The position numbers and the translations under genes are program-made. From contig CANFIH010000005.1 in NCBI GenBank assembly GCA_947446855.1, positions 1 through 62,738 of the forward strand: DNA of 62,738 nt. Reading direction: 5' to 3'. Each line of letters starts with the position of its first letter. The stretch's first letter is position 1. The stretch is from Burkholderiales bacterium (lineage in GTDB: Bacteria; Pseudomonadota; Gammaproteobacteria; Burkholderiales; Burkholderiaceae_C). This document shows positions 33,970-61,111 of the stretch, piece by piece. The notes below the pieces were generated by a model, which saw only the letters and a program-made list of their open reading frames with translations, was not told the origin of the DNA and made no database searches.

Positions 33970-34046
33970 AATAGAACCCCCACGCTCCCCCTCTTCGAGT
34001 GGGTCGCTGGCGCATGGACTGTGCGAAGCTTTGTCGGATGATCGCC

Positions 34047-35896: not shown

Positions 35897-35947
35897 ATTT
35901 TGTGTGTTGTCCTGTGTTGATTCTTTAACCCTGAAGGAGTGTTCCCC

Positions 35948-38362: not shown

Positions 38363-39478
38363 TCAGGCCACAAACACCCGCGCCTTGCGCGGCGTCAGCA
38401 CCAGCACTTCGCCTTCCTTGAAGCCGTCGACGGCGTACTGTTGCGCGCCGATCTGCGCCTCGATGATGTCGCCGCTGCCGGCGGTCGAGGCGTCGAGCGG
38501 CAGCAATTCGAGGCGGGCTATCGGGCCGACCACAATGGCGCGTACCAGCTTGGCTGGGATGCCGCTTTGGGGCTGGTAGGCGCCGATGCCGCTTTGCTCG
38601 CCGGGCTTGTAGCGCCGCACATCCAGATCGTGCGGACGCACGTAGGCAAAGGCCTTGCTGTCCTGGGTGGCGCTGTGCTCCGGGCTTTGCAGGCGCACAC
38701 CCTGCTGGTCTTCACCGATCAGCATCTCGCCCTCGTGGGCGCGGCCGTGGAACAGGTTCACGTCGCCCAGGAAGCCATAGACAAAGGGGCTGGCGGGATG
38801 GTCCCAAACCTCTTGCGGCGAGCCGATCTGTTCGATCTTGCCGCTGTTCATCAGCACCACGCGGTCAGCCACTTCCAGCGCCTCTTCCTGGTCGTGGGTG
38901 ACAAAGATGCTGGTCACATGCAGGTCATCGTGCAGGCGGCGCAGCCAGCGGCGCAGTTCCTTGCGCACCTTGGCATCCAGCGCGCCAAAGGGCTCGTCCA
39001 GCAGCAGCACCTTGGGCTCCACGGCCAGGGCGCGGGCCAGGGCAATGCGCTGGCGCTGGCCGCCCGAGAGCTGCGCCGGGTAGCGGTCGGACAGCCAGTC
39101 CAGCTGCACCAGGCCCAGCAGCTCGTGCACCTTCTGCTTGATCACGGCCTCGCTGGGGCGGGTGGCGCGCGGCTTCATGCGCAGCCCAAAGGCCACGTTG
39201 TCAAACACACTCATGTGGCGGAACAGCGCGTAATGCTGGAACACAAAGCCCACGTTGCGCTCGCGCACATGGACGTCGGTGGTGTCTTCGCCGCTGAACA
39301 GGATGTTGCCTTGGTCCGCCGTCTCCAGGCCGGCAATGATGCGCAAGAGCGTGGTCTTGCCGCAGCCCGAGGGGCCGAGCAGGGCGACCAGTTCGCCGGA
39401 CGCTATGTCCAGGCTCACATCACGCAGGGCGTGGAAGGTGCCAAAGTCTTTGCTGACGTTGCGAATGGCGATGCTCAT
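38363..39478 (-). CDS. cysA: Sulfate/thiosulfate ABC transporter ATP-binding protein CysA
   Basis: A 371-residue ATPase. Walker A is [18 protein letters not shown] near residue 33, the Q-loop FVFQHYALF, signature [15 protein letters not shown], and Walker [30 protein letters not shown], the last being a CysA hallmark. The C-terminal part is a TOBE/CysA-specific regulatory domain with an additional divergent segment. It energises sulfate and thiosulfate import. Last gene of cysTWA, 29 bases after cysW. Confidence 0.96.
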
Positions 39479-39507
39479 GGTGTCGTTCTCGGAATTCTGG
39501 AATGGTT

Positions 39508-40497
39508 TCAGGCTTGGGCTGTGGCGACGGGCAATGTCGGGGTCAGCGGACGTTCGGGGGGAAGGGCTGCGGCGGCTTTCATTTCCCGCTCAAAGCGCCA
39601 CTCCACCACCTGCTTGATCACCAGCGTGACCAGGGCCAAGAGGGCCAGCAGCGAGGCCACGGCAAAGGCGGCCACGCTCTGGTATTCGTTGTACAAAATT
39701 TCCACATGCAGGGGCACGGTATTGGTCTGGCCGCGGATGTGGCCGGACACCACCGACACCGCGCCAAACTCGCCCATGGCCCGCGCATTGCACAGGATCA
39801 CGCCGTAGACCAGGCCCCACTTGATATTGGGCAGGGTCACATGCCAGAAGGTCTGCCAGCCGGTGGCACCCAGCACAATCGCGGCCTGCTCTTCCTCCGT
39901 GCCCTGGGCCTGCATGAGCGGAATCAGCTCACGGGCGATGAAGGGGAAGGTGACAAAAATAGTGGCCAGCACGATGCCGGGAATGGCGAACACGATCTTG
40001 ATGTCATGTTCCTGCAGCCAGGGGCCGATCCAGCCCTGGGCGCCAAACATCAGCACATAGACCAGGCCCGCCACCACCGGCGACACCGAGAAGGGCAAGT
40101 CCACCAGCGTGGTCAAGAAGGCCTTGCCACGGAACTCGTACTTGGCAATGCACCAGGCCGCGGCAATGCCGAAGACCAGATTCAGCGGGACGGCAATCGC
40201 GGCGGTGATGAGCGTTAAGCGGATGGCGCTCCAGGCGTCGGGTTCCTTCAACGCCTCGAACGCGGCACCGCCGCCCTTGCGCAGGGCCTCGGTGAACACG
40301 GCGGCCAGCGGCAGCAGCAGGAACAGGAAGATAAAGCCCAGGGCGATGGTCAGCAGGGTCCACTTGACCCACAAGGGCTCGGTGGTTGTGGTGTTCTTGC
40401 GGGAACGCCGTGGAACCGGCTTTGCCGGGCCACTGGCGTTGTCCCCTGTAGGGGAAGACAGGCTTGCCTGGCTCAGGGGGGTGCTTTGTTCACTCAT
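39508..40497 (-). CDS. cysW: Sulfate ABC transporter permease CysW
   Basis: A 329-residue permease with six transmembrane helices and CysW motifs ([80 protein letters not shown]). The first 45 residues form a long Ser/Lys/Thr-rich cytoplasmic tail, longer than in most homologs. Its start overlaps the cysT stop by four bases. Confidence 0.95.
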
Positions 40498-41345
40498 GAC
40501 GAGGCTCCGTTGCGGCGGCGCTGCCAGGCTTGCAAGGCATTGATCACCAGCAGCAGCACAAAGGAAATCACCAGCAACACCACGGCCACCGCGGTGGCGC
40601 CGGCATAGTCGTACTGCTCCAGCTTGCCGATGATGATGAGCGGCGTGATCTCCGAAATCATGGGCATGTTGCCGGCGATAAAAATCACCGAGCCGTATTC
40701 GCCAATGGCGCGGGCAAAGGCCATGGCAAAGCCGGTCAGCAGGGCCGGCGCAATGGTCGGGAAGATCACATGCCAGAAGGTCTGCAGGCGCGTGGCGCCC
40801 AGGCAGGTGGCGGCTTCTTCGAGTTCTTTCTCGGCGTCTTCCAGCACCGGCTGCACCGTGCGCACCACAAAGGGCAGGCCGATAAAGATCAGTGCAATCA
40901 CCACGCCATTGCGGTTAAAGGCCAGCTGGATGCCATAGGGTTCCAAGAGTGATCCGACCCAGCCGTTGCTGGCCAGCAGGGCGGTGAGCGAAATGCCGGC
41001 CACGGCGGTGGGCAGGGCAAAGGGCAGGTCCACCAGCGCGTCGATGATCTTCTTGCCGGGGAACTGGTAGCGCACCAGCACCCAGGCCACCAGCAGGCCG
41101 AACACGGCATTCACCGTGGCGGCGATCAGCGAGGCGCCAAAGGTCAGGCGGTACGAGGCCATCACGCGCGGGCTGCTCACGGCCAGCACAAACTGGTCCC
41201 AGGTCAGGGTGAAGGTCTTGAAGATCAGGGCCGAGAGCGGTATCAGCACGATCACGCTCAGGTAAAACAGCGTGTAGCCCAGCGTCAGCTTGAAGCCGGG
41301 CAACACGCGCTTGGGCGCGCGGCGTGGAATGGAGAGTGTGGACAT
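40494..41345 (-). CDS. cysT: Sulfate ABC transporter permease CysT (CysU)
   Basis: A 283-residue permease with six helices and the CysT pattern ([43 protein letters not shown], then [30 protein letters not shown]). It forms the channel with CysW. The promoter should lie upstream, where a dyad shared with the sbp promoter region is found. I choose the ATG at 41345. Normally sbp precedes cysT; here a BRO-type gene separates them. Confidence 0.95.
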
Positions 41346-41439: not shown

Positions 41440-41587
41440 GAATTGCGAGCAAGACCCTGCTTTCAACATGCGATGCGCAGGCGGTGCTTGCGCCCAAGTC
41501 GGCTGTTGCAGGCCAAAATCAGATGGTACTGTATGAAATATCAGTATCATTATGGACGGGCAAGCGTGCCCATCCCAGGAGCCAGAC

Positions 41588-42551: not shown

Positions 42552-43550
42552 TTACTTCACCGTGTACAGCTTGTCGAACTGCCCGCCATCGTTGAAGTGC
42601 ACCTTCTGCGCCTCGGCCAACGAGCCGAACAGCTCTTCCACCGTGAACAACTGGATCGGCTTGAAGGTGGATGCGTATTTCTTCAGGATGGCAGGGTTGA
42701 TCGGGCGCAGCGCATGCTTGGCGGCAATCTCCTGCGCCTCGTCGGTGTACAGGTAGTTCAGATAAGCCTTGGCCACATCGGCGGTGCCCTTTTTGGCTAC
42801 GGTGCGTTCCACCACCGCCACCGGGTTTTCCGCCACGATGCTGATGCTGGGGTGCACCGCGTCCACCTTGCCGGTGCCGAATTCGCGGTCCACGGAGACG
42901 ACTTCGGATTCAAAGGTCACCAGCACATCGCCGATATTGCGTTGCAGGAAGATGGTGGTGGCGTCGCGCCCGCCCTTGGCCAGCACCGGCACATTCTTGT
43001 ACAGCTTGCCGACAAACTCCGCAGCTTGGGCGTCGGTGCCGCCCTTTTTTCGCGCATAACCCCAAGCCGCCAGATAGGCCATGCGCCCGTTGCCGCCGGT
43101 CTTGGGGTTGACCAGTACCACCTGGATGCCGGGCTTGGTCAGGTCGTCCCAGTCCTTGATGTGCTTGGGGTTGCCTTCGCGCGTCAGAAACAGCATGGTG
43201 CTGGAGGTGGGCGAGGCGTTGTGTGGGAAGCGCGTCTTCCAGTCCTTCGCGACGATGCCGGCATTCGCCAGAAACTCGACGTCGGTGGTGGTGTTCATGG
43301 TCACCACATCGGCGTCCAGACCGTCGTTGACGGCGCGCGCCTGGGCGCTGGAGCCGCCGTGCGACTGGTCGATTCTGATGTCCTTGCCGCTGCTCTTCTT
43401 GTAGCTGGCGATGAAGGCGCTGTTGATGTCCTTGTAAAACTCGCGCGCCACGTCATAGGAGGCGTTCAGCAGGGTTTGGCTTGAAGCCAGGTTGCTGGAC
43501 GTGAGTGCCAGGGCGGCAAGAACCAAGGACAGCTTGTGTTTGAGTTTCAT
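42552..43550 (-). CDS. sbp: Sulfate ABC transporter substrate-binding protein
   Basis: A 332-residue periplasmic binding protein. The signal peptide is MKLKHKLSLVLAALALTSSNLASS. Typical sulfate-binding protein blocks follow: LLNASYDVAREFYKDIN, QSHGGSSAQARAVNDGLDADVVTMN, and GGNGRMAYLAAWGYA. It delivers sulfate to CysTWA. Convergent with the BRO-type gene; its promoter region shares the 16-base element. A second, partial homolog lies at the window end. Confidence 0.94.
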   Translation of the reverse strand: MKLKHKLSLVLAALALTSSNLASSQTLLNASYDVAREFYKDINSAFIASYKKSSGKDIRIDQSHGGSSAQARAVNDGLDADVVTMNTTTDVEFLANAGIVAKDWKTRFPHNASPTSSTMLFLTREGNPKHIKDWDDLTKPGIQVVLVNPKTGGNGRMAYLAAWGYARKKGGTDAQAAEFVGKLYKNVPVLAKGGRDATTIFLQRNIGDVLVTFESEVVSVDREFGTGKVDAVHPSISIVAENPVAVVERTVAKKGTADVAKAYLNYLYTDEAQEIAAKHALRPINPAILKKYASTFKPIQLFTVEELFGSLAEAQKVHFNDGGQFDKLYTVK

Positions 43551-45329: not shown

Positions 45330-46343
45330 ATGAAGATCGTAAAAAAACTGCTCACCGCCACCGTGGGTGCACTGGCACTGGCTGGCGCGCTCAGCGCCGC
45401 CGCTGCCGACAAACCCGTGGTGGTGGCCTACCAGACCGACGCACTGCCTTCCTCGCTGGGCATTGCCAACGGCGACTTTGAAAAAGCCACCGGCAGCAGG
45501 ATTGACTTTCGCAAGTTCAACTCCGGTGGCGAAATTTTTGCGGCCATCGCTTCTGGCGACGTGCAGGTCGGCTATGTGGGCTCCAGCCCCTACGCCGCTG
45601 CCACCTCACGCGGTCTGGACGTCAAGGCCTTTTACCTGGCCTCCATCTCCGGCACCGATGAGGCGCTGGTGGTGCGCAACGGCTCCGGCATCAACAGCGT
45701 GGCCGACCTCAAGGGCAAGAAGCTCGCGGCCGCGCCCGTGTCTACCGACCATTACCAGCTGCTGGCGCTGATCAAGAGCCAGGGATTGACCGAAAAAGAC
45801 GTGCAGGTGTTTGCCATTCCCCAGCCGGAAATCGTGGCCGCCTACAACCGCGGCGATATCGATGGTGGCTTTGTCTGGGACCCGGCGCTGACCGAATTGA
45901 AAAAGACCGGCAAGGTCCTGGTCACCTCCAAGGAAGTCGCTGAAAAAGGCGCACCCACCTTCTCCGCCTGGGTTGCCACCGGCGCCTTTGCCAAAGAGCA
46001 CCCGGAGTTCCTCAAGGCCTTTGCCGGCGTGATCGAAAAGCACACCCATTCCTTTGTGCACGACAAGGCGGCCTGGAACAAGGACAGCGAAAACGCCAAG
46101 CAACTCGCCAAATTGCTGGGTGGTACGCCGGCCGATCAGGCTGCGGGGCTGCTCAACCTGAATCTGGTGCCGCTGAACGCGCAGGCGTCGGATGCCTGGC
46201 TGGGCGGTGGCGAGAAATCCGGCATTGCCAAGATCCTGAAGGAAACCTCGGTGTTCCTGAAAGAGCAGAAGAAGATTTCGGACGTGCTGCCCAGTTACGC
46301 CCCGTTCGTGACAGCCACCGCCGTCGCATCCCTGAAGAAGTAA
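45330..46343 (+). CDS. tauA: Taurine/sulfonate ABC transporter substrate-binding protein
   Basis: A 337-residue binding protein with signal peptide ([27 protein letters not shown]) and TauA-like mature sequence ([66 protein letters not shown]). It should bind taurine or another aliphatic sulfonate. First gene of tauABC here. A strong hairpin follows its stop, which may raise its expression above that of tauBC. Confidence 0.93.
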
Positions 46344-46363
46344 GCGCTTTTTCAAACCCTCTA

Positions 46364-46393
46364 CGCCGCGCGGTGGGTAAGCACCGCGCGGCG
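46364..46393. terminator. Strong hairpin between tauA and tauB
   Basis: A perfect 12-bp GC-rich stem (CGCCGCGCGGTG with CACCGCGCGGCG) around a 6-base loop, 21 bases after the tauA stop and about 34 before tauB. Without a long T-tract it is more likely an mRNA-stabilising or partial-termination structure than a full terminator. Confidence 0.65.
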
Positions 46394-46426
46394 TTGCGTC
46401 TTGCAAAACCACCACGAGAACAGCCC

Positions 46427-47218
46427 ATGTTGAAAGTTGATAACGCCAGTGTCTTTTTTGCCGCCCGCGATGGCCGGGCCGTGCAGGCGCTGGACCGCGT
46501 GTCGCTGGATATTCCCAACGGCGGCTTTGTCGTCGCGCTGGGTACTTCGGGTTGCGGCAAGTCCACGCTGCTCAACGCCATGGCCGGCTTTTTGCCGCTG
46601 TCGAGCGGCAGCATCACGCTGGACGGCGCACCGGTGACCCAGCCCGGGGCCGAGCGTGGCGTGGTGTTCCAGAAGGACAGCCTGCTGCCCTGGAAATCGG
46701 TGCTGGACAACGTGGCGCTGGGTTTGAAGTTTGCCGGTGTGCCGCGCAGTGAGCGCACCGAACGCGCCCACGCCTTGCTGCGCCTGGTCGGCCTGCAGGA
46801 CTTTGCCAAGGCAGCGCCCTATGAACTTTCGGGCGGCATGCGCCAGCGCGTGGGCCTGGCGCGGGCCCTGGCACCGGACCCCAAAATTTTGCTGATGGAC
46901 GAACCCTTTGGCGCGCTCGACAGCATGACGCGCGAGCAAATGCAGGAGCTGCTGGTGTCGGTGTGGGCCCGCACCGGCAAGCAGGTGTTCTTCATCACCC
47001 ATTCGATTGAAGAGGCGCTGTTTCTGGGCACGCAGGTCATCGTCATGTCGCCGCGCCCCGGGCGCATCGTGGCGCGTTTTGAGGTGGACTTTGTGCGCCG
47101 CTTTGCGAGGGACCGCGATGCCCGCACCATCAAAACTCTGCCCGTTTTTTCCGAACTGCGCGAAGAGATCCGCGCCATCGTGCACCAGACCGAAGACCAG
47201 GAGCTAGCCAACGTATGA
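46427..47218 (+). CDS. tauB: Taurine/sulfonate ABC transporter ATP-binding protein
   Basis: A 263-residue ATPase: Walker [18 protein letters not shown], signature [15 protein letters not shown], Walker [22 protein letters not shown], and H-loop [14 protein letters not shown]. It belongs to the TauB/SsuB branch and energises sulfonate import. ATG at 46427. Its stop overlaps the tauC start (ATGA). Confidence 0.94.
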
Positions 47219-48102
47219 CCGACCTTGCCGCACAACTTTCCGTGTTTCAGCACATAGACGCCAGCGCCACCGTCATGCTGCCCGAAGCCAAAACCCCCAC
47301 GCCCACTCTGGTGAAAATGCGCAGCTTTGGCATCGGCGAAGGCCGCACCGTTTGCATCAGCCTGGCCACCGGCATTGCCATCTTGAGCCTCTGGTGGCTG
47401 CTGGCGCAGACCGGCTGGGTGCCGCATTTGTTTCTGCCCACACCGGCCGAAGTCATCACGATGGCGCAAAACATCTGGGAAGACGGCTACGCCAATGCCA
47501 CGCTGTGGGAGCATGTGTCGGCCAGCCTGGCGCGCATCCTCTCGGCTGCAGCCATTGCCGTGCTGCTGGGCATTCCGGTGGGCCTGCTGATGGGCCTGAA
47601 CCGCTGGGCCAAGGGCGTGCTGGACACACCCATCGAGTTCTACTGGCCGCTGCCGCCACTGGCCTATTTGCCGCTGATGATCATCTGGCTGGGCATTGGC
47701 GAGGCCTCCAAGATCACCCTGCTGACGCTGGCCATGTTTGCGCCCATAGCTCTCTCGGCCCAGGCCGGCGTGCGCGCCCTGCCGCAGGAGCGGGTGAATG
47801 CCGCGCTCGCATTGGGGGCCACACGCTGGCAACTGTTTCTTGAGGTGGTACTGCCTTCCGCCCTGCCGGAAATCCTGACCGGCATCCGCATTGCGCTGGG
47901 CGTGGGCTGGGGCACGCTGGTGGCCGCCGAGCTGATTGCCGCCAACCGCGGCATCGGCTTCATGATCATGTCGGCCTCGCACTTTTTGGCCACCGACGCG
48001 GTGTTTGTCGGCATCGGCGTGATTGCGGTGTGCGCCTTCAGCTTCACCCTGGCCATGCGAATGCTGGAGGGCGCACTGGTGCCTTGGAAGGGCAAGAGTT
48101 AG
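47215..48102 (+). CDS. tauC: Taurine/sulfonate ABC transporter permease
   Basis: A 295-residue permease. After a 45-residue cytoplasmic N-terminus come six transmembrane helices with the EAA loop [54 protein letters not shown], typical of TauC/SsuC. Its start overlaps tauB. No tauD follows; a TauD-like gene is 7 kb away at 55132. Confidence 0.93.
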
Positions 48103-50308: not shown

Positions 50309-50460
50309 CAGGAGTCCTTTTTATCAATACGGCGCCAGTATGCCGCCGCTTTGTTAAGCCCCGATTAATTGCAGCACGTCACCACAAGCGGTGTTGACAG
50401 GGTGATCCGGCCGGCACTTCCTGCGGCTTGGCGCTCGATGCGCTGGCAGGGCGCAGACAA

Positions 50461-50490
50461 AAAAAGAGCGACCCGCAGGTCGCTCTTTTT
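50461..50490 (-). terminator. Terminator of the encapsulin operon
   Basis: A perfect stem GAGCGACC (50466-50473) and GGTCGCTC (50478-50485) around a CGCA loop, with A5 on the left and T5 on the right. It ends 20 bases past the desulfurase stop on the minus strand. The symmetric tracts would let it work in both directions. Confidence 0.9.
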
Positions 50491-50510: not shown

Positions 50511-52733
50511 TCAGTGACTGCGCGCCGAACTCAGCCGTCGCACCACTGCGATCATCCGGTCCACCTCTTCGCAGGTGTTGTAGAACGCCAGCGAAGGCCG
50601 CACCGTGGTCTCCACACCCATGCGCCGCAGGATGGGCTGCGCGCAGTGGTGGCCGGAGCGCACCGCAATGCCTTCGTCGTTCAAGGCCTTGCCCACTTCT
50701 TCGGTGGTGTAGCCCTTGAGCACAAAGGACAGCACGCTGGCCTTTTCATGGGCCGTGCCAATCAGCCGCACACCGGGGATCGGTTTGAGCAGATGCGTGG
50801 CATAGGCCAGGAGGTCATGCTCGTAGCGCGCGATATTTTCCAGGCCCAGCCGCTGCACATAGTCGATGGCCGCACCCAGACCCACCGCGTCAGCGATGTT
50901 GCCGGTGCCTGCCTCGAACTTATTTGGAGGCGGCTGGAATACGGTGCGCTCAAAGGTCACGTCGGCAATCATGTTGCCTCCGCCCTGCCAGGGGGGCATG
51001 GCGTCGAGCAGCGCGCGCTTTCCGTAGACCACACCAATGCCGGTGGGGCCGAACAGCTTGTGCCCGGAGAACACAAAGAAGTCCGCACCCATGTCCTGCA
51101 CATTCACCCGCATGTGGCTGACCGATTGCGCACCGTCCACCAGCGCGATGGCGCCGGCACGGTGGGCGAGTTCCACAATCTCTTTGACTGGCACCACGGT
51201 GCCGAGTGCGTTGGAGACCTGTGTTACGGCCACAATTTTCGTGCGGTCGTTCAAGAGCTTTTTGTACTCGTCGATCAAGACCTGGCCGGAGTCGTCCACC
51301 GGGATCACCCGGATCTTCGCGCCCTTTTGTGCTGCGAGTTGCTGCCAGGGCACGATGTTGGCGTGGTGTTCCAGGTTCGAGACGATGATCTCGTCGCCCT
51401 CCAGCACGTTCTGCACCCCCCAGGTCTTGGCCACCAGGTTGATGGCCTCGGTGGCGCCGCGCACGAAGATGATCTCGTCCACGCTGCCGGCACCCAGGAA
51501 GGTGCGCACTTTTTCACGCGCGCCTTCATAGGCATCGGTAGCACGCGCCGCCAGCTCATGTGCTGCACGGTGGATATTCGAATTCTCATGTTCGTAAAAA
51601 TACGAGATCCGGTCGATCACCGCCTTGGGCTTGTGTGTGGTGGCCGCGTTGTCAAACCACACCAGCTGCTTGCCGTTGACGCGTTCCTGCAGGATGGGGA
51701 AATCCCGGCGGACCGCGTGGACGTCAAAGGCCGGATGGCGTGAGGCGTCGAGCTCAGGATCGCGCCCGGCGTAAGCGTTGGGGTCACGCTGGGGCTCCAG
51801 AAAGTAGAAGGGTCCTGCCGCCTGCGCACCGCCGGCAACCGGTGCAGAACCAGAACTTGCAGGCTGCGCTGCGCTTGCGTGAGCCGGTATACGCGGGTTG
51901 TTGCTCAGCAGCGCACGCAAATCGTCGGCACCGGGCAGCCCGAAGGAATGCGCGGTGACACGGTCTTCGCGTGGCACGCTGTACTCGTTCAGCTTGGATG
52001 GATAACCGTTGCCGCTGTTGACGAAGTAGAACGGCGAAGCTTCAGCCGGCGCCGGGGCAGTAGCACCGTCTGCTAGCAGCGCTGCACTGCCAGCAGTCAC
52101 CGCAGCCGAGTCACCAATGCCCGGAGCGGCCGGCACGGACGCACCTCCCGCGGTGGGCTTCGATGGCGCAGTTGCGGGTGCCGATTGCGGCGAGGTTGTG
52201 CCCGCGCCTTGCGGCACACCCAGTGTCTGGGCGCCGAAGCGGTTGTCCACGGCAGGCGCTACCAGGGTGGCGTTGTCGGGCAGGCCGTTGGGGGCTGCGG
52301 AGTGGGGCACCAGGGATGGTGTGGATGCGCCCAGGTTGAGCGCATTTTGTGGCGTGGTGGGCGCCATATTGGCTCCCGGAGGCGGCGAGCCAAATGGAAA
52401 GGCTGCGGGCGACTGCGGCTCGCGCACCACCGGGCCCAGCGAGCTGCCACCGGGCAGAACGTTTGTGGGCGCAGGTACCCCGCCCAGCGCTGGCGCAGTC
52501 GGTTGCACATTGCCAAACGCCGGTGGCGAGGGCTGCGGCAGACTGCCCAGTGAAGGGGGTGTAGGTGCTTGCGGCAGGCCAGCCGGTGCAGGGGCCGCCG
52601 ACGGAAATTGCGGTGCCTGTCCCGGCAGCGCCGAGAAGAAGGCGCCGGCCAACTGCGTCAGCATGGCGATGTCGGGCAAGCCTGCAGGGGGAGTTCCCCC
52701 CGGCAGATTATTTGTAGGTGTCTGGATAGTCAT
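50511..52733 (-). CDS. Family 2A encapsulin cargo: cysteine desulfurase
   Basis: A 740-residue protein. Residues about 342-740 are a SufS-like, PLP-dependent cysteine desulfurase: the PLP Lys in FSGHKLFGPTG is about 559, the catalytic Cys in RSGHHCAQP about 697. The first 340 residues are a disordered Pro/Ala/Gly-rich extension with the repeated motif SPFYF or GPFYF and NEYSVPREDRV; in family 2A encapsulins this extension loads the enzyme into the shell. It releases sulfur from cysteine inside the compartment. It overlaps the end of the shell gene by 26 bases and is the last gene of the operon. Confidence 0.95.
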   Translation of the reverse strand: MTIQTPTNNLPGGTPPAGLPDIAMLTQLAGAFFSALPGQAPQFPSAAPAPAGLPQAPTPPSLGSLPQPSPPAFGNVQPTAPALGGVPAPTNVLPGGSSLGPVVREPQSPAAFPFGSPPPGANMAPTTPQNALNLGASTPSLVPHSAAPNGLPDNATLVAPAVDNRFGAQTLGVPQGAGTTSPQSAPATAPSKPTAGGASVPAAPGIGDSAAVTAGSAALLADGATAPAPAEASPFYFVNSGNGYPSKLNEYSVPREDRVTAHSFGLPGADDLRALLSNNPRIPAHASAAQPASSGSAPVAGGAQAAGPFYFLEPQRDPNAYAGRDPELDASRHPAFDVHAVRRDFPILQERVNGKQLVWFDNAATTHKPKAVIDRISYFYEHENSNIHRAAHELAARATDAYEGAREKVRTFLGAGSVDEIIFVRGATEAINLVAKTWGVQNVLEGDEIIVSNLEHHANIVPWQQLAAQKGAKIRVIPVDDSGQVLIDEYKKLLNDRTKIVAVTQVSNALGTVVPVKEIVELAHRAGAIALVDGAQSVSHMRVNVQDMGADFFVFSGHKLFGPTGIGVVYGKRALLDAMPPWQGGGNMIADVTFERTVFQPPPNKFEAGTGNIADAVGLGAAIDYVQRLGLENIARYEHDLLAYATHLLKPIPGVRLIGTAHEKASVLSFVLKGYTTEEVGKALNDEGIAVRSGHHCAQPILRRMGVETTVRPSLAFYNTCEEVDRMIAVVRRLSSARSH

Positions 52734-53637
52734 GGAACTTGCCCACTTCAACATCTTCCAGCACGGCCAGCGCGTCGTCGGATTGGACGACCAGCGAGCA
52801 GTACAGGCTGATCAGGTAAGAGGCAATCGCACTGCGGTTGATACCCATGAAACGTACCGACAGACCGGGGCTTTGTTCGCCGGCCAGACCGGGCTGGAAC
52901 ACGCCGACCACGCCCTGGCGCTTGTCGCCCACGCGCACCAGAATGATCTTGGTCTTGCCATCGGCTACGGGCACCTTGTCGCTGGGGATCAGCGGCACGC
53001 CGCGCCAGGTCAGGAACTGCGAACCAAACAGGCTCACGGTGGGCGGCGGCACGCCACGGCGCGTGCATTCGCGGCCGAAGGCAGCAATGGCCAGCGGGTG
53101 GGTCAGGAAGAAGGCGGGCTCTTTCCAGACCTTGGTGAGCAGCTCGTCCAGATCGTCCGGTGTGGGCGCGCCGGTCAGCGGGTAGATGATTTGATCCGGT
53201 GCGACGGATGCCAGCAAACCGTAGTCGGGGTTGTTGATCAGCTCGGATTCCTGGCGTTCCTTGATGGTCTCAATCGTCAGGCGCAGTTGTTCCTTGATCT
53301 GGTCATGCGGGCTGCTGTACAGATCGGAGACGCGGGTGTGCACGTCCAGCACGGTGGAGACGGCGTTGAGGAAATACTCGCGCGGTGTGTCTTCGTAATC
53401 GACAAAGGTTTGCGGCAGTTCGGACTCGTCGCGCTTGGCGCAGGCCACCAGCACGTCTTGCGGGTTCTTGACCTTGTTGAGGCGGTAAATGCCGGCTTCC
53501 ACGGGCACCCATTGCAGCAGGTGCACCAGCCAGCGCGGGCTGATGGTGGACAGAATGGGGACGGTCTTGGTGGCGTTGGCGAGTTGCCGCGCGGCGCTGT
53601 CGCTGAGCGCGGATTGGCTGGGAAGGGGCTCTGACAT
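52708..53637 (-). CDS. Family 2A encapsulin shell protein (SrpI-like)
   Basis: A 309-residue HK97-fold shell subunit of family 2A encapsulins. Diagnostic blocks are LVHLLQWVPVEAGIYRLNKVKNP, DYEDTPREYFLNAVSTVLDVHTRVSDLYSSPHDQIKEQLRLTIETIKERQESELINN, and GREC-TRRGVPPPTVSLFGSQFLTWRGVPLIPSDKVP. It builds the icosahedral compartment for the desulfurase. SrpI homologs respond to sulfur limitation. It lies between the acetyltransferase and desulfurase genes. No phage genes are near. Confidence 0.96.
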   Translation of the reverse strand: MSEPLPSQSALSDSAARQLANATKTVPILSTISPRWLVHLLQWVPVEAGIYRLNKVKNPQDVLVACAKRDESELPQTFVDYEDTPREYFLNAVSTVLDVHTRVSDLYSSPHDQIKEQLRLTIETIKERQESELINNPDYGLLASVAPDQIIYPLTGAPTPDDLDELLTKVWKEPAFFLTHPLAIAAFGRECTRRGVPPPTVSLFGSQFLTWRGVPLIPSDKVPVADGKTKIILVRVGDKRQGVVGVFQPGLAGEQSPGLSVRFMGINRSAIASYLISLYCSLVVQSDDALAVLEDVEVGKFHDYPDTYK

Positions 53638-53687
53638 AAAGGTCTCCGGGGTTAAAAAAGGGAACGTGAAAAGGGGTTGCGTTGGTG

Positions 53688-54605
53688 TCAGGCTGCTTTG
53701 ATGTCCTGGCGTGCGGTGGCCTGCGTGATGTGGGTGCCGGGGGCTACGTCATGCGTGAGCCAGACATTGCCGCCGATCGATGCGCCGCGCCCCACGGTGA
53801 TGCGGCCGAGCACGGTGGCGCCGGCGTAGATGACGACCTCGTCTTCCAGAATCGGGTGGCGCGGCTGGCCCTTGATGGGTTTGCCATCGGCATCGACCGG
53901 GAAGCTCTTGGCACCCAATGTGACGGCCTGGTAGAGGCGTACACGCTCACCGATGACGGCCGTCTCGCCGATCACGACGCCGGTGCCGTGGTCGATGAAA
54001 AAGCCCGGGCCAATCGTGGCACCGGGGTGGATGTCGATGCCGGTTTCGGCATGGGCCAGCTCGGCCGCAATGCGCGCCAGCAGCGGCACGCCCGACTCGT
54101 ACAACCGGTGCGCCACGCGGTGGTACATCATGGCCAGGATGCCGGGGTAGCACAGCAGCACCTCGTCCACACTGCGTGCGGCCGGGTCGCCTTCAAAGGC
54201 GGCAATCACATCGCTGTCGAGCAGGCGGCGTATGCCGGGCAGGGCGCCGGCAAAGTCGCGGGTGATGGCCAGGGCCTGCGCGTCCAGCGCGCTGCCATCC
54301 ACCGCATCCTGATGGCGGGCGGTGTAGTGCAACTCCAGCCGCACCTGGGCGTGCAGCGCATGCAGCACGGCGCCCAGGGTGTGGCCCACATAAAAGTCTT
54401 CGCTCTCCTGGCGCAAATCGGTAGGCCCCAGGCGCATGGGAAACAGCACGCCCTTGAGGCCGCGCAGGATGTCGGCCAGCGCATCGCGCGAGGGCAGCTC
54501 GCGCCCGCCGGGTTCATTGGAGCGCTGTTGCCCGGCACGCCATTCCTGGCGCACGGCAGCGAGTTGACCCACGACGTTTTCCAGATCAAACAGGGGCTGG
54601 GCCAT
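53688..54605 (-). CDS. Serine O-acetyltransferase EpsC-type
   Basis: A 305-residue CysE-like enzyme with an N-terminal helical domain and a left-handed beta-helix of hexapeptide repeats: AHAETGIDIHPGATIGPGFFIDHGTGVVIGETAVIGERVRLYQAVTLGAKSF, including the catalytic DHGTG. It makes O-acetylserine from serine and acetyl-CoA for cysteine synthesis. This EpsC form is the usual partner in family 2A encapsulin operons. ATG at 54605, three bases after the rhodanese stop. Confidence 0.94.
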   Translation of the reverse strand: MAQPLFDLENVVGQLAAVRQEWRAGQQRSNEPGGRELPSRDALADILRGLKGVLFPMRLGPTDLRQESEDFYVGHTLGAVLHALHAQVRLELHYTARHQDAVDGSALDAQALAITRDFAGALPGIRRLLDSDVIAAFEGDPAARSVDEVLLCYPGILAMMYHRVAHRLYESGVPLLARIAAELAHAETGIDIHPGATIGPGFFIDHGTGVVIGETAVIGERVRLYQAVTLGAKSFPVDADGKPIKGQPRHPILEDEVVIYAGATVLGRITVGRGASIGGNVWLTHDVAPGTHITQATARQDIKAA

Positions 54606-54608
54606 CAC

Positions 54609-55076
54609 TCAATCCTGCACCCAGGGCAGCTGGTGAAAGCGCCAGCCGTCCTTGCCGCCGCGCTGTTTGTGGGCGTCAATCTCGCCCTCAAAACCTTCGA
54701 GGATGTTGAACACGCGGGTGAAGCCGGCGGTGGCTGCTGCCTGGGCGGCCAGGGCCGAGCGCTTGCCGCTGCGGCACAGCAGCAGGACGGTGGACTGCTT
54801 GCCCACTTTGACTTCCAGCTCGCGCACAAAGCGCGGGTTGCGTGTGAGGGCCGTGCCGGTGGCCCAGGCCACATGCTGGCTGCCGGGCACATGGCCGACG
54901 AACTTGCGTTCCTCGGTGGTGCGCACATCGACCAGCACCACTTCGCCGGCGGAGAACAGTTCCCAGGCGAGCTGGGGCGGTACCGCGCCCGCATAGGGCA
55001 GGCCGGTGGAAAGGGCCACGGCGCGTATGGATTCCAGTGCGGTGGGCAGGGCGGTCGGTTCGGCGGCAACAGTCAT
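54609..55076 (-). CDS. Rhodanese-like sulfurtransferase
   Basis: A 155-residue single rhodanese domain. The active loop VLLLCRSGKRSALAAQ has the catalytic Cys at 101. VLVDVRTTEERKFVGHVPGSQHVAW provides the other family motif. It carries persulfide sulfur and probably takes it from the encapsulated desulfurase. Positioned before the acetyltransferase gene in the operon. Length fits single-domain rhodaneses. Confidence 0.95.
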   Translation of the reverse strand: MTVAAEPTALPTALESIRAVALSTGLPYAGAVPPQLAWELFSAGEVVLVDVRTTEERKFVGHVPGSQHVAWATGTALTRNPRFVRELEVKVGKQSTVLLLCRSGKRSALAAQAAATAGFTRVFNILEGFEGEIDAHKQRGGKDGWRFHQLPWVQD

Positions 55077-55131
55077 GGGGAGTGTCCTCAGCAGGGGGTG
55101 AAAAAAGGGGTGTGGAACAGCGTGCGGGGGC

Positions 55132-55965
55132 TTAAAAAGGCCTGTCGCCCAGCACCGTGGCGCGGTGCATCACGCGGCGGTGCGGCAGGTAATCGTTGGT
55201 GGCGTAGTGCTGGGTCAGGCGGTTGTCCCAGAAGGCGAAGTCATGGGCCTTCCAGCGCCAGCGCACGGTGAACTCCGGCTTGGCAATGTGCTTGACCAGC
55301 AGGGCCAGTACGGCGTCGCTCTCCGGCAGGCTGAGTTCGCGGATGCGGGTGGTGAAGCCCTCGTTGACGAAGATGCCCTTCTTGCCCGTGACCGGGTGGG
55401 TGCGGATCACCGGGTGCACCACCACCGGGTTGTTTGTGCGGGCCATGTCATAGCGCAGCTGTTCTTCCGGCGTGCGGGCAAAGCGCACCGCGTGGAAGGA
55501 TTTCATGATGTCGTGTTCGGCCGTCAGCCCGTCCAGCAATTTCTGGAACGCGGGAGAGAGCGCGTCAAACGCTGCCACGCCACTGGACCACAGCGTGTCG
55601 CCGCCGCTGGGCGGCAGCAGTTTGGCCGACAGCAGTGCGCCCATGGGTGGTGTCTGGATAAAGGTGACGTCGGTATGCCAGTTGTCGTTGTCGGGCGGGT
55701 TGCCGGTGCTGGTGTCGAGCAGGATGATTTCCGGCACCTGCGGGTCTGACGGGTAGATCGGGTGGATGTGCAGTGCGCCAAAGCGTGCTGCCAGATCGCG
55801 CTGCTGGCGCGGCGTGATGGGCTGGTTTTCAAAAAACAGCACCTGGTGCTGCAGCAGGGCTTGCGTCAGTGCGTCGCGGTGGTCATCGCGCAAGGGCTCA
55901 GAGAGTTGAATGCCGCTGACCAGTGCGCCAATGGCCGGGCCCAGGGCTTGTATGTGTAATGTCAT
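55132..55965 (-). CDS. TauD/TfdA family Fe(II)/2-oxoglutarate dioxygenase
   Basis: A 277-residue dioxygenase. The iron facial triad is His97-x-Asp99 (WHTDVTF) and His253 (LTQHYATNDY), with Arg268 (MHRATV) to bind 2-oxoglutarate. TauD frees sulfite from taurine; relatives act on alkyl sulfates or herbicides. It is the first gene of the encapsulin operon, 55 bases before rhodanese, a position that links sulfonate use to the compartment. ATG at 55965. Confidence 0.93.
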   Translation of the reverse strand: MTLHIQALGPAIGALVSGIQLSEPLRDDHRDALTQALLQHQVLFFENQPITPRQQRDLAARFGALHIHPIYPSDPQVPEIILLDTSTGNPPDNDNWHTDVTFIQTPPMGALLSAKLLPPSGGDTLWSSGVAAFDALSPAFQKLLDGLTAEHDIMKSFHAVRFARTPEEQLRYDMARTNNPVVVHPVIRTHPVTGKKGIFVNEGFTTRIRELSLPESDAVLALLVKHIAKPEFTVRWRWKAHDFAFWDNRLTQHYATNDYLPHRRVMHRATVLGDRPF

Positions 55966-56169
55966 GCCGTGAGCGTAAGCAGGCAGCACGCAAAACCAAA
56001 CGATCAAAACCGGCCTTGCTTAGGCGGAAAACGCATATGCCCCAGGCCTGTGCCGACACCCGGAGGGGCGTCTGAAAGTGAAGGCCCGGGTTTCATTTTT
56101 TTCCTGCCTTTGTCACGGAGGCGGGCGCAAACCTATGATCGGTCGGCTTCCTGCAATACACGTAAATCC

Positions 56170-57399
56170 ATGTACCTGTCTCCCATCAACGGACAGTCGA
56201 TCGCGCTGAACCAGCCCTTGCCCTTCAGCCTGGTGGACAAGCATGGCATCTTGCTGGCCAAAAAAGGATTTGTGTTTGAAAGCGAGAAACTGCTAAACGA
56301 TCTGGAAAGTCGCGGCGGTGGTTTTTTCATTGACTTCAAGGAAGGCGGCAAGGCGCTTCGGCACGCCCATCAGTCGTATGTGAACCGGTTGCAAAGCGTG
56401 ATCCGCAACCAAAAGCCTCTGGGCGAGATCGCCAAAGTCGGGGTGCAATATGCGCCCCCCCTGGCCGCCGGCGCATTGGAGCCGCAGCCCGTGGACTGGC
56501 CCTATGTGCTGATGAAGTGCAACGTCTTGCTGCACAGCGCCAGCGCGGAAAAGTTCGCTGCCGGTCTGGAGGAAATGGTCGCCTTCCTGACGCAGCAAAA
56601 CCAGCACAACCCCGACGGTATGCTGTTTGCCCTGTTTTATCTCTCGTCCGAATACATCACGTTGTACAGCGCGACCCACAGCTTGCTGTGCAGTGTGATG
56701 TGTGTGCTGGCCGCCAAAGACGTGCTGCGCTGGTCGGATGAGGAGGTGGCCCTGCTGTTTCGGGCCACCCTCACCATGAACATCGGCATGACGGCGCTGC
56801 AGGACCGGTTGGCGATGCAAAAGACACCGCTCGACGAGCTGCAGCGGGCCGCTGTCGATGGCCACACGCACCTTGCGACGGACACTTTGGAGTCTTTGGG
56901 CGTTGAGGACCGCTTGTGGCTGGACACCGTGCGCAACCACCATGCCTACATTCATGCGCCGCTACAGGCGCGTCGGGAGGCGCACCGCTTTGCCGGGTTG
57001 ATCCAGCGTGCCGACGTGTTCTCGGCCCGTCTGGCTCCGCGGGTGTCGCGTGCTCCATCGTCAGCCGCGCAGGCCATGCGGGCCATCTACTTTGATTCCG
57101 ATATGAATGTGGACGGCGCGGGCGCGGCCCTCATCAAGGCGGTGGGTATCTACCCGCCCGGATCGTTTGTGAGGCTGCACTCCGGGGAGGTGGCGGTGGT
57201 GCTGCAAAGGGGCCCGAACACGGCGATTCCCAAGGTCGCGGTGGTGCTCAATCGCCATGCGCTGGCTTCGGTGGAGCCCATCGTCCGCGACACCTCCGTG
57301 CCGGCCTACGCCATCGCGTCCCATGTGCTGCGGGGCGACGTGCGGGTGCACCTCAGCCTGGAGAAAATGCTGGCGCTGACCCGCGCGCGCCCGGCCTGA
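56170..57399 (+). CDS. Degenerate HD-GYP domain protein
   Basis: A 410-residue protein. The first 135 residues resemble the DUF3391-type N-terminus of HD-GYP phosphodiesterases (LDFFIDFKEGG-like and YVNRLQSVIRN). The HD-GYP core keeps HSLLCSVMCVLAAKDVL and HLATDTLESLG, but HDIGK is replaced by MNIGM and the GYP motif by IHAPLQARR. It is unlikely to cleave cyclic di-GMP and may bind it or a protein. Divergent from the encapsulin operon, with a 200-base gap. Confidence 0.85.
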   Translation: MYLSPINGQSIALNQPLPFSLVDKHGILLAKKGFVFESEKLLNDLESRGGGFFIDFKEGGKALRHAHQSYVNRLQSVIRNQKPLGEIAKVGVQYAPPLAAGALEPQPVDWPYVLMKCNVLLHSASAEKFAAGLEEMVAFLTQQNQHNPDGMLFALFYLSSEYITLYSATHSLLCSVMCVLAAKDVLRWSDEEVALLFRATLTMNIGMTALQDRLAMQKTPLDELQRAAVDGHTHLATDTLESLGVEDRLWLDTVRNHHAYIHAPLQARREAHRFAGLIQRADVFSARLAPRVSRAPSSAAQAMRAIYFDSDMNVDGAGAALIKAVGIYPPGSFVRLHSGEVAVVLQRGPNTAIPKVAVVLNRHALASVEPIVRDTSVPAYAIASHVLRGDVRVHLSLEKMLALTRARPA

Positions 57400-57431: not shown

Positions 57432-58235
57432 CTACAGACTCTGCAAGCCGCTGGCGCAGGCCTGCTCCTGCATGTCCATGCAGACCCGGTAATCGGCCAG
57501 CGTGGTCGCTTCAAAACCGCAGATCAACAGGGGTGCGCGCAGGGCCGCATAGGCGGGCTCGCTGGCCAAGGCCTGCAAGCCCCGGCGCAAGGCCGTCACG
57601 ACGTTTGTGGGTGTTTGCAGCGAGGTAATCAGCGGCAGGCCGGGATAGGGTGCGGTTTGGCCGAAGACGCGCAGCGCGCTGGCTTTTTCGGGGTGGCTGC
57701 GTTGCCACAGCGCCCAGGTCACGGCGTCCACGGCGGCCAGGTCGGCGCGGCCGTTGCGTACCGCTTCCATCGACCGGATATGTGCGCCGGTCTGCACGGT
57801 GGCGGCAAAGAAGGGTCGCGCGGTGCCGGGCTCGGCAAGCAGCGCACGCAAGGCGTTGTAGCCGGACTGGGAGATGCGGTCGTTCAAGGCCAGTGTGCTG
57901 CCGGCAAACTGGGCCAGCGACTGGCGCGCATCCCCTGCACGGCACAGCAGCTGGCTGCGGCAGGTCACGCCACGGGTGCCCGGCGCGTCGTAGGCAAAGG
58001 TGCCCACCAGGCGCACCCGGTCTTTGAGCAGGGTGACCAGCGGATAACCACAGGCCTGGCTGAGCAGCAGGTCGCCCTCCTGCCATTGGGCGTGGCAGTC
58101 CAGCGGCTCGCTCAACTCAAAGGGGATGTCCAAACCGGCGCAGGTACCATCGGCGCGCAGCAAACCGGCCAGCGCGGCCCAGAAGGCCTGCAGCGCCTCC
58201 CGCGGCGGGTAGTACATGGGCAGCGCGGCTTGCAT
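57432..58235 (-). CDS. PhnD-like phosphate/phosphonate-type binding protein without signal peptide
   Basis: A 267-residue protein with the fold of PhnD/SsuA-2 binding proteins: LLLSQACGYPLVTLLKDRVRLVGTFAYDAPGTRG, RISQSGYNALRALLAE and SMEAVRNGRADLAAVDAVTWALW. No N-terminal hydrophobic signal is visible, so a cytoplasmic location or a wrong start is implied. No permease or ATPase is adjacent. Ligand unknown. It follows the desaturase gene by 15 bases and may share its operon. Confidence 0.85.
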   Translation of the reverse strand: MQAALPMYYPPREALQAFWAALAGLLRADGTCAGLDIPFELSEPLDCHAQWQEGDLLLSQACGYPLVTLLKDRVRLVGTFAYDAPGTRGVTCRSQLLCRAGDARQSLAQFAGSTLALNDRISQSGYNALRALLAEPGTARPFFAATVQTGAHIRSMEAVRNGRADLAAVDAVTWALWQRSHPEKASALRVFGQTAPYPGLPLITSLQTPTNVVTALRRGLQALASEPAYAALRAPLLICGFEATTLADYRVCMDMQEQACASGLQSL

Positions 58236-58250
58236 GGCGGAGGTGTGTGG

Positions 58251-59204
58251 CTAGGGTTTGAGCGCTGCGGCTGCCGTCTTGGCAGCGCGTCGCGGTGCCG
58301 TGGCGGGCTTGGCCAGCACCGGGTTGTCGATGGGGCGCCAGGCAAAGTGGCGTATCAGGTGGAGGTAGCCCGGCACGACAAAGCCGCCATTGACGGCACG
58401 AAAGCCCTGGCGCTGCGCGGTATACAGGGCTGCAATCCGGTACCAGGGCAACTGCGGGTAGGCGTGGTGCACCACGTGGTAGTTGTTGTTCAGGTAGAGC
58501 AGGCGCCAGGGTGCGGCGGCCTCGTTGATGACGGTGCGGTGTGCCGGCAGGGTACCGGGGCGGTGCTCGTAGAGCGAGCGCAGCATGGCCAGGCCCAGCG
58601 CCGGGTAGGCAATGCCCAAACAGTAGTGCCAGGCCGTCAGGGCGGTGAATTGCTCCAGCCCCCAAAGCAGCAGCGCCACCAGCGGCAGGTGCACGGCCCA
58701 GACCTTGAGTTCAGCCCCATCGCCCCGGCGCAGCGAGCGCAGCAGCCGCGTCCACAGGCTGACGTTGACGATGGCCGGCCCGATCAGCAGGCGGCCCAGC
58801 ACGGTGCGCTGGCTTTTGTACAGCCACAGCGCCGTGGCGCCCATGGTGGCGGCTTGTTCCGGGGTGATGTAGTTGCTTTCGGTGTCCACGCCGGGCTCGG
58901 TCAGGTGGGCGTCGTCGTGGTGCTTGAGGTGGTCGGTCTTGTAGGTGTCAAACGGGTACCAGACGGCCAGGGGGGGCAGGCCGATCAGTCGGTTGATGGC
59001 CTCAAAACGGGTCGGGTGGCCGTGGGTGAGTTCGTGCTGAAAGCTCATGTACCAGGCCAGCAGCAGGATCAGCAAGGGGGTGGCAATCCAGCCGGGAAGG
59101 ATGCCGTAGCGGCTGACCAGCAGCACCCAACAGCCCCAGATCACGCCCCACAACAGCCAGGTGGGCCATTCGAATTCCGTGCGCTGTGCTGTGTCTGCCT
59201 GCAT
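58251..59204 (-). CDS. Fatty acid desaturase family protein
   Basis: A 317-residue membrane di-iron enzyme with the three His boxes of the FA_desaturase family: HELTH near residue 57, HLKHHDD near residue 92, and NNYHVVHHAYPQLPW near residue 242. Four hydrophobic segments surround them. The substrate may be a fatty acyl chain or a carotenoid. The last 20 residues are Ala/Lys-rich. Upstream of the PhnD-like gene. Confidence 0.92.
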   Translation of the reverse strand: MQADTAQRTEFEWPTWLLWGVIWGCWVLLVSRYGILPGWIATPLLILLLAWYMSFQHELTHGHPTRFEAINRLIGLPPLAVWYPFDTYKTDHLKHHDDAHLTEPGVDTESNYITPEQAATMGATALWLYKSQRTVLGRLLIGPAIVNVSLWTRLLRSLRRGDGAELKVWAVHLPLVALLLWGLEQFTALTAWHYCLGIAYPALGLAMLRSLYEHRPGTLPAHRTVINEAAAPWRLLYLNNNYHVVHHAYPQLPWYRIAALYTAQRQGFRAVNGGFVVPGYLHLIRHFAWRPIDNPVLAKPATAPRRAAKTAAAALKP

Positions 59205-60178: not shown

Positions 60179-61111
60179 TCAGCCGCCCTGGTCCGCAAAG
60201 GCAGTCGCCACCACCTTGCGCGTGAGCGTGGGCGCGAACAGTTCGACAAAGCTGTAGGCATAGCCGCGCAGCCAGGCGCCCTTGCGCAGGCCCAGGCGCG
60301 TGACGTTGAAGGCAAACAGATGGCCGGCATCCAGAATGCCCAGGTTGCGGTCGCGCTCCTCGTCCACGGCAATGGAGGCCACGATGCCGATGCCCATGCC
60401 CAGTTCCACATAGGTCTTGATGACGTCGGCGTCCATGGCGGTCAGCACCACATCCGGGTGCAGGCCTTCGGCGTGGAAGGCGTCATCAATGTGCGAGCGT
60501 CCGGTGTAGCCCACCTCGTAGGTGATGATGGGGTAGCGCGTGAGTTGTTGCAGCGTGATGGGCGCAGTCTCTTGCAGCAGCGGGTGGCCGGGTGGCACGA
60601 TCACGCTGTGGGTCCAGCGATAGCAGGGCAGGGTGACCAGCTGCGCATAGTCGCCCAGCGCCTCGGTGGCCACGCCGATATCGGCCTCGCCGGACAGCAG
60701 CATGGCCGCTACCTGCTTGGGCGAGCCCTGGTGCAGGTGCAGGGTGACCTTGGGAAAGGAGTCGCGGAACTCCTTGACCACCTGCGGCAACGCATAACGC
60801 GCTTGCGAGTGGGTGGCGGCCACGGTGAGCTGGCCTTCGAGTTGCGCGGTGAAGTCCTGGCCGGCGCGCTTGAGGTTTTCGGCATCGAGCAGCAGGCGCT
60901 CGACGATGGGCAGCAGCGCCTCGCCCGGGGGGGTGAGGCCGGTCAGGCGCTTGCCGGCGCGTACAAAAATTTCCACCCCCAGCTCTTCCTCGAGTTCGCG
61001 GATCTGGCGGCTGACTCCGGGCTGCGAGGTGAACAGCATGTTGGCCACCTCGGTCAGGTTGAAGTTGCAGCGCACGGCCTCGCGCACGGAGCGCAGTTGT
61101 TGGAAATTCAT
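60179..61111 (-). CDS. cysB: CysB-type LysR transcriptional regulator
   Basis: A 310-residue LysR regulator of the CysB/Cbl branch: MNFQQLRSVREAVRCNFNLTEVANMLFTSQPGVSRQIRELEEELGVEIFVRAGKRLTGLT is a standard CysB N-terminus; the effector domain has THSQARYALP and DADVIKTYVELGMGIGIVASIA. CysB activates sulfate assimilation in response to N-acetylserine. It lies between metY and the YeeE pair. It could instead be the Cbl-type sulfonate regulator. Confidence 0.93.
   Translation of the reverse strand: MNFQQLRSVREAVRCNFNLTEVANMLFTSQPGVSRQIRELEEELGVEIFVRAGKRLTGLTPPGEALLPIVERLLLDAENLKRAGQDFTAQLEGQLTVAATHSQARYALPQVVKEFRDSFPKVTLHLHQGSPKQVAAMLLSGEADIGVATEALGDYAQLVTLPCYRWTHSVIVPPGHPLLQETAPITLQQLTRYPIITYEVGYTGRSHIDDAFHAEGLHPDVVLTAMDADVIKTYVELGMGIGIVASIAVDEERDRNLGILDAGHLFAFNVTRLGLRKGAWLRGYAYSFVELFAPTLTRKVVATAFADQGG

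Follow-up and report, generated by a model that had tools for sequence, protein, structure and literature searches.

A taurine dioxygenase gene at the head of a family 2A encapsulin operon, behind a candidate sulfur-starvation switch

What fills and empties the encapsulins of family 2A is, to our knowledge, an unanswered question. Elemental sulfur has reportedly been found in an Acinetobacter shell. A 62,738-nucleotide stretch of a Burkholderiales genome (contig CANFIH010000005.1, positions 1 to 62,738, assembly GCA_947446855.1; hereafter the window) carries a family 2A encapsulin operon whose first gene, tauD, encodes a predicted taurine dioxygenase, and raises the question whether taurine sulfur may reach the shell. 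In Synechococcus elongatus, the desulfurase is the shell cargo, sulfur starvation induces the system, and family 2a is described as adjoining sulfur metabolism genes (excerpted text of PMC8049743); an excerpt of PMC12407261 gives "sulfur storage" as an encapsulin role, citing others. A sequence-only reading of the window had suggested a flow from sulfonate cleavage through cysteine synthesis to encapsulated sulfur storage and supposed that it had not been described as one unit, and a search by title and start of abstract, with the neighbourhood supplement of PMC8049743 outside its scope, retrieved no such description. The words "dioxygenase", "sulfonate" and "TauD" occur 0 times in the main text of PMC8346489.

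The tauD-headed operon

Five co-directional genes on the minus strand form the operon:

55132..55965, minus strand: tauD, taurine dioxygenase, 277 residues, first gene of the operon, with its ATG at 55965
55077..55131, minus strand: 55-bp junction from the tauD stop to the rhodanese ATG, with a GAGGA ribosome-binding sequence
54609..55076, minus strand: single-domain rhodanese, 155 residues, CRSGKR loop (PF00581, 55.8 bits)
53688..54608, minus strand: serine O-acetyltransferase (SAT) of the EpsC type, 306 residues (NF041874, 161.8 bits, cut-off 150)
52708..53637, minus strand: family 2A encapsulin shell protein, SrpI-like, 309 residues (NF041162, 530.8 bits, cut-off 380; PF19307, 337 bits)
50511..52733, minus strand: cysteine desulfurase cargo with a long N-terminal region, stop at 50511 (NF041166, 928 bits, cut-off 800)
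50459..50485, minus strand: hairpin GAGCGACC-4-GGTCGCTC followed by a T run, the likely operon terminator (sequence and fold)

The placing of tauD 55 bases ahead of a family 2A operon, claimed in the sequence-only reading, is exact in its coordinates, and the family profiles score above their cut-offs; the observation of a tauD-headed family 2A encapsulin operon is confirmed. SAT abuts the rhodanese gene, and the first 26 bp of the cargo gene overlap the shell gene. The shell protein carries the SrpI-like Pfam domain only, as expected of an HK97-type family 2A shell, and no cyclic-nucleotide domain of family 2B; against the 450-position 2B model it scores 408.4 (cut-off 400), with the best stretch at model positions 210-449. 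Residues 1-734 of the 740-residue desulfurase match positions 1-623 of the NF041166 model, and the long N-terminal loading region of the cargo is present. Against the cysE model TIGR01172 the SAT scores 170.8 bits, under the cut-off of 210.65. Rhodanese and SAT beside shell and cargo are the accessory genes of the known family 2A set, as compared with excerpted text of PMC8346489. The operon shares this set with that of SrpI from S. elongatus (excerpts of PMC8049743 and PMC8346489); it differs in its first gene, which encodes a true taurine dioxygenase, and in a palindrome of operator type that it has in common with sulfonate and sulfate uptake genes.

TauD matches PF02668 with 235.9 bits and the taurine dioxygenase model NF007104 with 448.5 bits (cut-off 313), residues 2-277 aligning to model positions 4-279 of 282. 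Its closest solved relative is E. coli TauD (1gqw, 387.5 bits), to which 169 of 277 aligned residues are identical. Thirteen active-site positions of E. coli TauD, which we take to contact iron, 2-oxoglutarate or taurine, are all conserved in the pairwise alignment (13/13). Equivalog score and ligand residues together assign the protein as a predicted taurine dioxygenase. Compared with E. coli tauABCD (NC_000913.3), importer and active-site residues are alike; there tauD is the last gene, whereas in the window it is the first gene of the encapsulin operon and tauABC forms a convergent unit of its own. Relative to its E. coli counterpart, TauD is not extended at either end and is therefore unlikely to be a shell cargo, a role we rejected.

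A separate promoter and terminator between tauD and the rhodanese gene, together with a lack of conserved linkage, would have refuted a common unit according to the sequence-only reading. No terminator-like site was found in the junction (55077-55131) by sequence, terminator scan or fold: it contains a run of six T, with no stable hairpin folding ahead of the run. A simple promoter and terminator scan returned nothing exceeding shuffles. Nor does any operator-like site of the kind described below (at least 10/14 letters) lie within 200 bp before the rhodanese gene, where the best match, 9, is inside tauD. The hairpin at 50459-50485 was not flagged by the simple scan, perhaps because its stem can extend into A/T tracts; it is symmetric, and the other strand could use the same terminator.

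Recurrence of the linkage

Among 103 genomes of the genus, the shell occurs in 13 congeners (12 above the cut-off) and true TauD, above its cut-off, in seven (one of the genes, at the edge of a contig, is incomplete). Both are present in five genomes, the window's included, and tauD heads the operon in 5/5 (Fisher p = 0.0003 for co-occurrence). It lies directly before the rhodanese gene in the window's own genome and in G517 (locus L145, gap 47 bp), G516 (L143, called gap 10 bp) and G453 (L149, gap 247 bp); genes of the relatives were called by a codon-score script, and their start sites are approximate. In G514 (L151), one contig ends with tauD, a second TauD-family gene, the rhodanese gene and SAT, and another begins with shell and cargo (L140); the two parts are presumably adjacent across the break. 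TauD of these four genomes is 70-93% identical to that of the window. The survey of related genomes proposed by the sequence-only reading thus finds the linkage conserved, with tauD heading the operon in five genomes of the genus, in two versions that came together independently.

The second TauD-family dioxygenase stands directly before the rhodanese gene at L151:10128-11039 and L146:6946-7857, with 83% mutual identity and about 37% identity to E. coli TauD. In G490, a homologue (83% identical) of the second TauD-family gene of G514 stands alone before the rhodanese gene. Other genes or a long gap precede it in G444, G479, G488 and G478, and a CysB-like gene in G482; in G484 the region is ended by its contig. 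Beside the divergent shell of G486 (L150, G486:C289; 60% identical), no rhodanese or SAT gene was found. Relatives also carry a small gene between SAT and shell (L149:9140-9412, L285:8667-8936), a helix-turn-helix regulator in Variovorax annotation, for which the 50-bp SAT-shell gap of the window leaves no room.

A draw of 399 genomes from the family contains 75 with the shell (72 above the cut-off) and 12 with TauD above its cut-off. Eight of these 12 carry the shell, against 67 of the 387 others (p = 0.0003). Sixteen family genomes combine the shell with a TauD match at E <= 1e-80, and in six of them (the window's own, G119, G197, G214, G282 and G311) the two lie within 10 kb, against 0.07 such pairs expected if TauD were placed at random; TauD of G119 (partial) and of G214 falls below the TauD cut-off. 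The arrangement varies. In the window's genome tauD comes first, in G197 tauDCBA lies convergent behind the cargo, in G311 tauD is 9 kb upstream on the same strand, and in G119 and G282 tauABC diverges from the rhodanese gene, with tauD more distant.

No tauD-headed operon outside the genus was found among 74 family loci (68 with rhodanese and upstream gene called), and none among 80 named loci, of which L005, from genome G514, ends at the shell. The tauD-headed form of the shell operon is rare. A genome-wide search for TauD, made for 42 of the 80 named loci, gave three matches above the cut-off: linked in the genome of L005 (G514), within a tauABCD set about 18 kb from the shell in Andreprevotia L057, and on another contig in the Moraxellaceae metagenome-assembled genome L017. 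In another genus, going by called starts, the cargo stop abuts a TauD-family gene (L164:12183-13055) with about 40% identity to E. coli TauD, so that a dioxygenase can also stand last in the operon. A CysM/K-like gene joins it elsewhere, in the order rhodanese-CysM/K-like-SAT in L158, L180 and L187, and behind the cargo in L154 and L156.

In a TauD tree of 33 rows, the window groups with L145, L151 and L143 (100/99), and G453 falls in another starred clade together with G446, G459 and G243. A starred branch likewise separates G453 from the window in a tree of shell and SAT (83 rows; a quick method with no bootstrap, leaving out L140, L150, L159 and L227), on which close TauD changes at least six times, five of them forced by starred branches. 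Because TauD and shell plus SAT of G453 both sit in clades apart from the window's, the tauD-headed operon has at least two origins in this one genus, barring a joint replacement of both parts. G446, which has no shell genes, holds the same tauCBA-tauD block as G453 (TauD 94%, TauA 96% and TauC 95% identical). The rhodanese-to-cargo cassette of G453 is flanked by tauD on one side and, on the other, by a block also present in G446, which consists of YeeE-type genes and a gene that by eye resembles metallo-beta-lactamases.

An operator-like palindrome in a sulfur island

The operon lies among further sulfur genes and operator-like sites of the window:

56019..56039, minus strand: palindrome CATATGCG-TTTTC-CGCCTAAG, starting 74 bp before tauD, 12/14 consensus letters
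41433-41453: palindrome before cysT, 12/14, starting 108 bp before the gene
38363..41345, minus strand: cysTWA sulfate/thiosulfate importer (TIGR02139, TIGR02140 and TIGR00968 above cut-off)
42552..43550, minus strand: CysP/Sbp sulfate/thiosulfate-binding protein (TIGR00971, 380 against a cut-off of 155.5)
45330..48102, plus strand: tauABC taurine importer, a convergent, separate unit (TauA, TIGR01729, 319.3 against a cut-off of 304.25)
59297-60168, in the operon's direction: two Sulf_transp/DUF6691-type genes
60179..61111, minus strand: CysB-family LysR-type regulator, candidate controller (NF009327, 473.2 bits, cut-off 402)
61160-62455: pyridoxal-phosphate (PLP) enzyme of Cys/Met metabolism

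The consensus CTTATNCG-N5-CGNATAAG was set from the window, L151 and L149 before it was applied elsewhere. The palindrome of the window is identical in L145 and scores 12/14 in L151, 11/14 in L149 and 10/14 in L143. About 75 bp upstream of tauD are strongly conserved in the window, L145 and L151, and the palindrome also occurs in L149 and L272. All five tauD-headed operons of the genus, three of which served for the consensus, have a site of at least 10/14 before tauD. Within the window, tauD and cysT reach 12; tauA (a palindrome starting 120 bp before the gene) and cysP reach 10; among 15 other gene starts, only the divergent gene sharing the intergenic region of tauD reaches 10. The four genes thus have an operator-like site in common, as genes of a CysB-type regulon would. 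The spacing fits the T-N11-A box expected for regulators of the LysR type, which makes the CysB family the leading candidate for the protein predicted to bind the palindrome. A comparable CysB or SsuR binding consensus was not found in the literature searched, an excerpt of PMC10179380 included.

A scan of 87 shell-bearing or genus loci gave 51 matches of at least 11/14, of which 43 are intergenic, and 26 of the 43 have a rhodanese, tauD, tauA, cysP, cysT or ssuE gene at most 400 bp downstream. In other genera, the upstream region of the rhodanese gene (unusable in 6 of 74 family loci, leaving 68) reaches 10/14 in 16 of 68 cases, a score attained by 3 of 410 control upstream regions (p = 4e-12). 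Only 1 of 1000 permuted half-sites equals this result, itself a near variant of the consensus, and spacers of 3, 4, 6 and 7 yield 3, 2, 5 and 11 regions where the spacer of 5 yields 16. Among named loci, partly of the same species and with no control of their own, 19 of 66 reach 10/14. The window's genome has six sites with at most two mismatches, four of them in the window. The palindrome is not a mark of tauD as such, a possibility that was rejected: eight TauD genes unlinked to shells outside the genus score 6-9/14.

About 24 kb of the window hold cysTWA, cysP, a LysR gene, an Rrf2 gene, tauABC, the encapsulin operon, the Sulf_transp/DUF6691 pair, the CysB-family gene and the PLP enzyme. 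The tauABC-like import that the sequence-only reading had placed nearby is real, TauA scoring above its cut-off; TauB (327.9 against 357) and TauC (312.7 against 342) match the taurine models best, yet below the cut-offs. The inclusion of this import in one unit does not stand. tauABC is a convergent operon on the opposite strand, 2.4 kb beyond the operon end and behind the terminator-like hairpin with its T run, and we therefore rejected its membership of the encapsulin transcript. An ABC transporter set at 33214-36964 was also rejected as a second sulfonate importer: its ATPase matches the taurine model best, at 221 bits against a cut-off of 357, the remaining three genes have no NCBIfam match at 1e-30, and a RutR-like TetR gene follows.

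On the other side of the operon and in its direction, genes for a solitary binding protein of the phosphonate type and for a fatty acid desaturase (57432-59204) are followed by the Sulf_transp/DUF6691-type genes. In L145, binding protein, desaturase and Sulf_transp/DUF6691-type genes run directly into tauD, and in L155, from another genus, binding protein and desaturase stand immediately before the rhodanese gene. A plus-strand gene with no Pfam match (56170-57399) separates tauD from the binding-protein gene in the window; the equivalent interval in L145 measures 138 bp, and the window gene thus looks inserted.

Similar surroundings are common in the family. Markers were counted within 9.5 kb of the shell in 74 family regions (the window's genome apart) and in 40 random control regions of the same contigs, at least 30 kb from the shell. 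The 74 regions contain the TauD superfamily in 14 (11 genera), sulfonate-binding proteins in 20, SsuD in 10, SsuE in 7, CysP in 18 and CysB-like proteins in 11. Any of the first four is present in 30/74, and any of the six in 43/74 (32 of 44 genera), against 1/40 controls (p = 3e-10). Each marker occurs in 0/40 controls, except sulfonate-binding protein and SsuE with 1/40 each, in the same region; SsuE on its own is not significant (p = 0.16). Regions L154-L158 had been placed off-centre to include TauD, and a recount within 9.5 kb keeps the 14/74. The tauD-headed operon is one version of a wider habit, in which shell operons have genes of sulfonate and sulfate metabolism or of the CysB type as neighbours. 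To PMC8049743 our analysis adds the operator-like site and the place of sulfonate genes and TauD in the neighbourhood.

A shared switch, taurine sulfur and the alternatives

We favour, with moderate confidence, the reading that this is a sulfur-starvation operon, in which tauD stands first behind a shared LysR-type switch and taurine sulfur is passed to the shell; we infer the single transcript, the identity of the regulator and the metabolic flow. The most probable regulator is the CysB-family protein whose gene lies 4 kb away; bound to the palindrome before tauD, it would turn on tauD, rhodanese, SAT, shell and cargo in a single message, coordinately with cysTWA, cysP and tauABC. TauABC would bring in taurine, from which TauD, outside the shell, would free sulfite. 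Elsewhere the genome encodes a NIR_SIR-domain reductase and two CysK/M proteins, all above cut-off, which could complete the chain from taurine to the shell: cysteine would be made by sulfite reductase and cysteine synthase, the operon's SAT supplying the O-acetylserine. The shell-enclosed desulfurase would then convert cysteine to alanine and sulfane sulfur, which the rhodanese would hand on. The CysB inducer derives from a precursor that SAT produces, and the operon may thereby amplify its own induction. With the sulfonate regulons of the CysB/Cbl/SsuR type in proteobacteria the window shares a CysB-family gene in the island and a T-N11-A palindrome; an encapsulin operon within such a regulon was not found in the literature searched.

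In other genera and in one congener such a site lies before the rhodanese gene, but in the window before tauD and not in the junction. The simplest account of this is that tauD stands behind a sulfur-starvation switch for the whole operon, having either entered downstream of a site that the operon already had or come together with that site. G446 has tauD and the site and no shell, and the second route is therefore open for the G453 version.

Several observations weigh against the favoured reading. The upstream region of the rhodanese gene stays below 10/14 in 52 of 68 cases, and only one of seven congeners with no true tauD at the head and with a scorable region (L139, 13/14) reaches 10/14 there, the others scoring 7-9. 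This speaks against simple capture of one ancestral site, and an ancestral switch before the rhodanese gene rests on L139 and the other genera. Two of the window's four two-mismatch sites lie inside predicted genes. Genome-wide, at three mismatches or fewer, the palindrome occurs 49 times and its reversed control 119 times; it is not commoner than the control, and what informs is its position alone. In 31 of 74 family loci, not one of the tested sulfur neighbours is present. In the genus, tauD was not seen before the shell in 8 of 13 shell-bearing genomes, and the link is therefore optional; the 247-bp gap of G453 could hold a promoter of its own, and genomes of one genus are not independent. 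In S. elongatus, knock-outs of shell and desulfurase have no growth defect, sulfur starvation included (excerpted text of PMC8049743).

It is possible, though we doubt it, that the operon merely shares the starvation switch and the island, with no direct flow of taurine sulfur into the shell; the shell would handle cysteine sulfur of any source, for protection, persulfide supply or storage, and tauD would be one more starvation gene. The neighbours do vary among tau, ssu, sulfate transport and CysB-type genes, the absence of tauD from the shell in eight of 13 congeners points the same way, and the main text of PMC8049743, in which srpI of S. elongatus is induced by sulfur starvation, contains "sulfonate" 0 times. 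A linkage found in all five congeners that have both genes, and assembled at least twice, nevertheless exceeds what a common island would lead one to expect. A chance rearrangement or assembly artefact that put tauD before the operon with no function is extremely improbable. The genome is a draft of 334 contigs (86.93% complete, 6.49% contaminated), but three other genomes share the gene order, a fourth differs by one additional gene, and their TauD proteins are 70-93% identical; such conservation in independent assemblies, like the six close pairs in the family against 0.07 expected, contradicts an artefact.

Sulfite and sulfane sulfur react to thiosulfate, which is textbook chemistry. With the rhodanese as catalyst, TauD sulfite might drain sulfane sulfur from the shell as thiosulfate, which is then assimilated. 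tauD adjoins the rhodanese gene, Sulf_transp-type genes lie in the same island, and CysM/K-like genes occur in 9/74 family regions against 0/40 controls, several within or beside the operon. Most surveyed rhodanese-SAT-shell-cargo operons nevertheless have no tauD, and YeeE-type markers are present in only 1/74 family and 2/12 genus regions; we regard draining as very unlikely. A broader proposal assigns the family 2A encapsulins of this bacterial family to an organosulfur-starvation regulon as its sulfane-sulfur arm, in which the functional coupling to tauD would give one operon both an inlet (cysteine fed by sulfite from taurine) and an outlet (thiosulfate via the rhodanese) of a sulfur store; it strikes us as speculative and unlikely.

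Under the favoured reading, a sulfur-starvation operon fed from taurine, the finding of tauD in what appears to be the same message, with a switch shared with sulfonate and sulfate uptake, would name a sulfur source and an inducing condition for a family 2A encapsulin. The palindrome and the CysB-family gene provide a candidate operator and a candidate regulator for the encapsulin genes of this family, and the arrangement suggests that scavenged organic sulfur feeds the shell.

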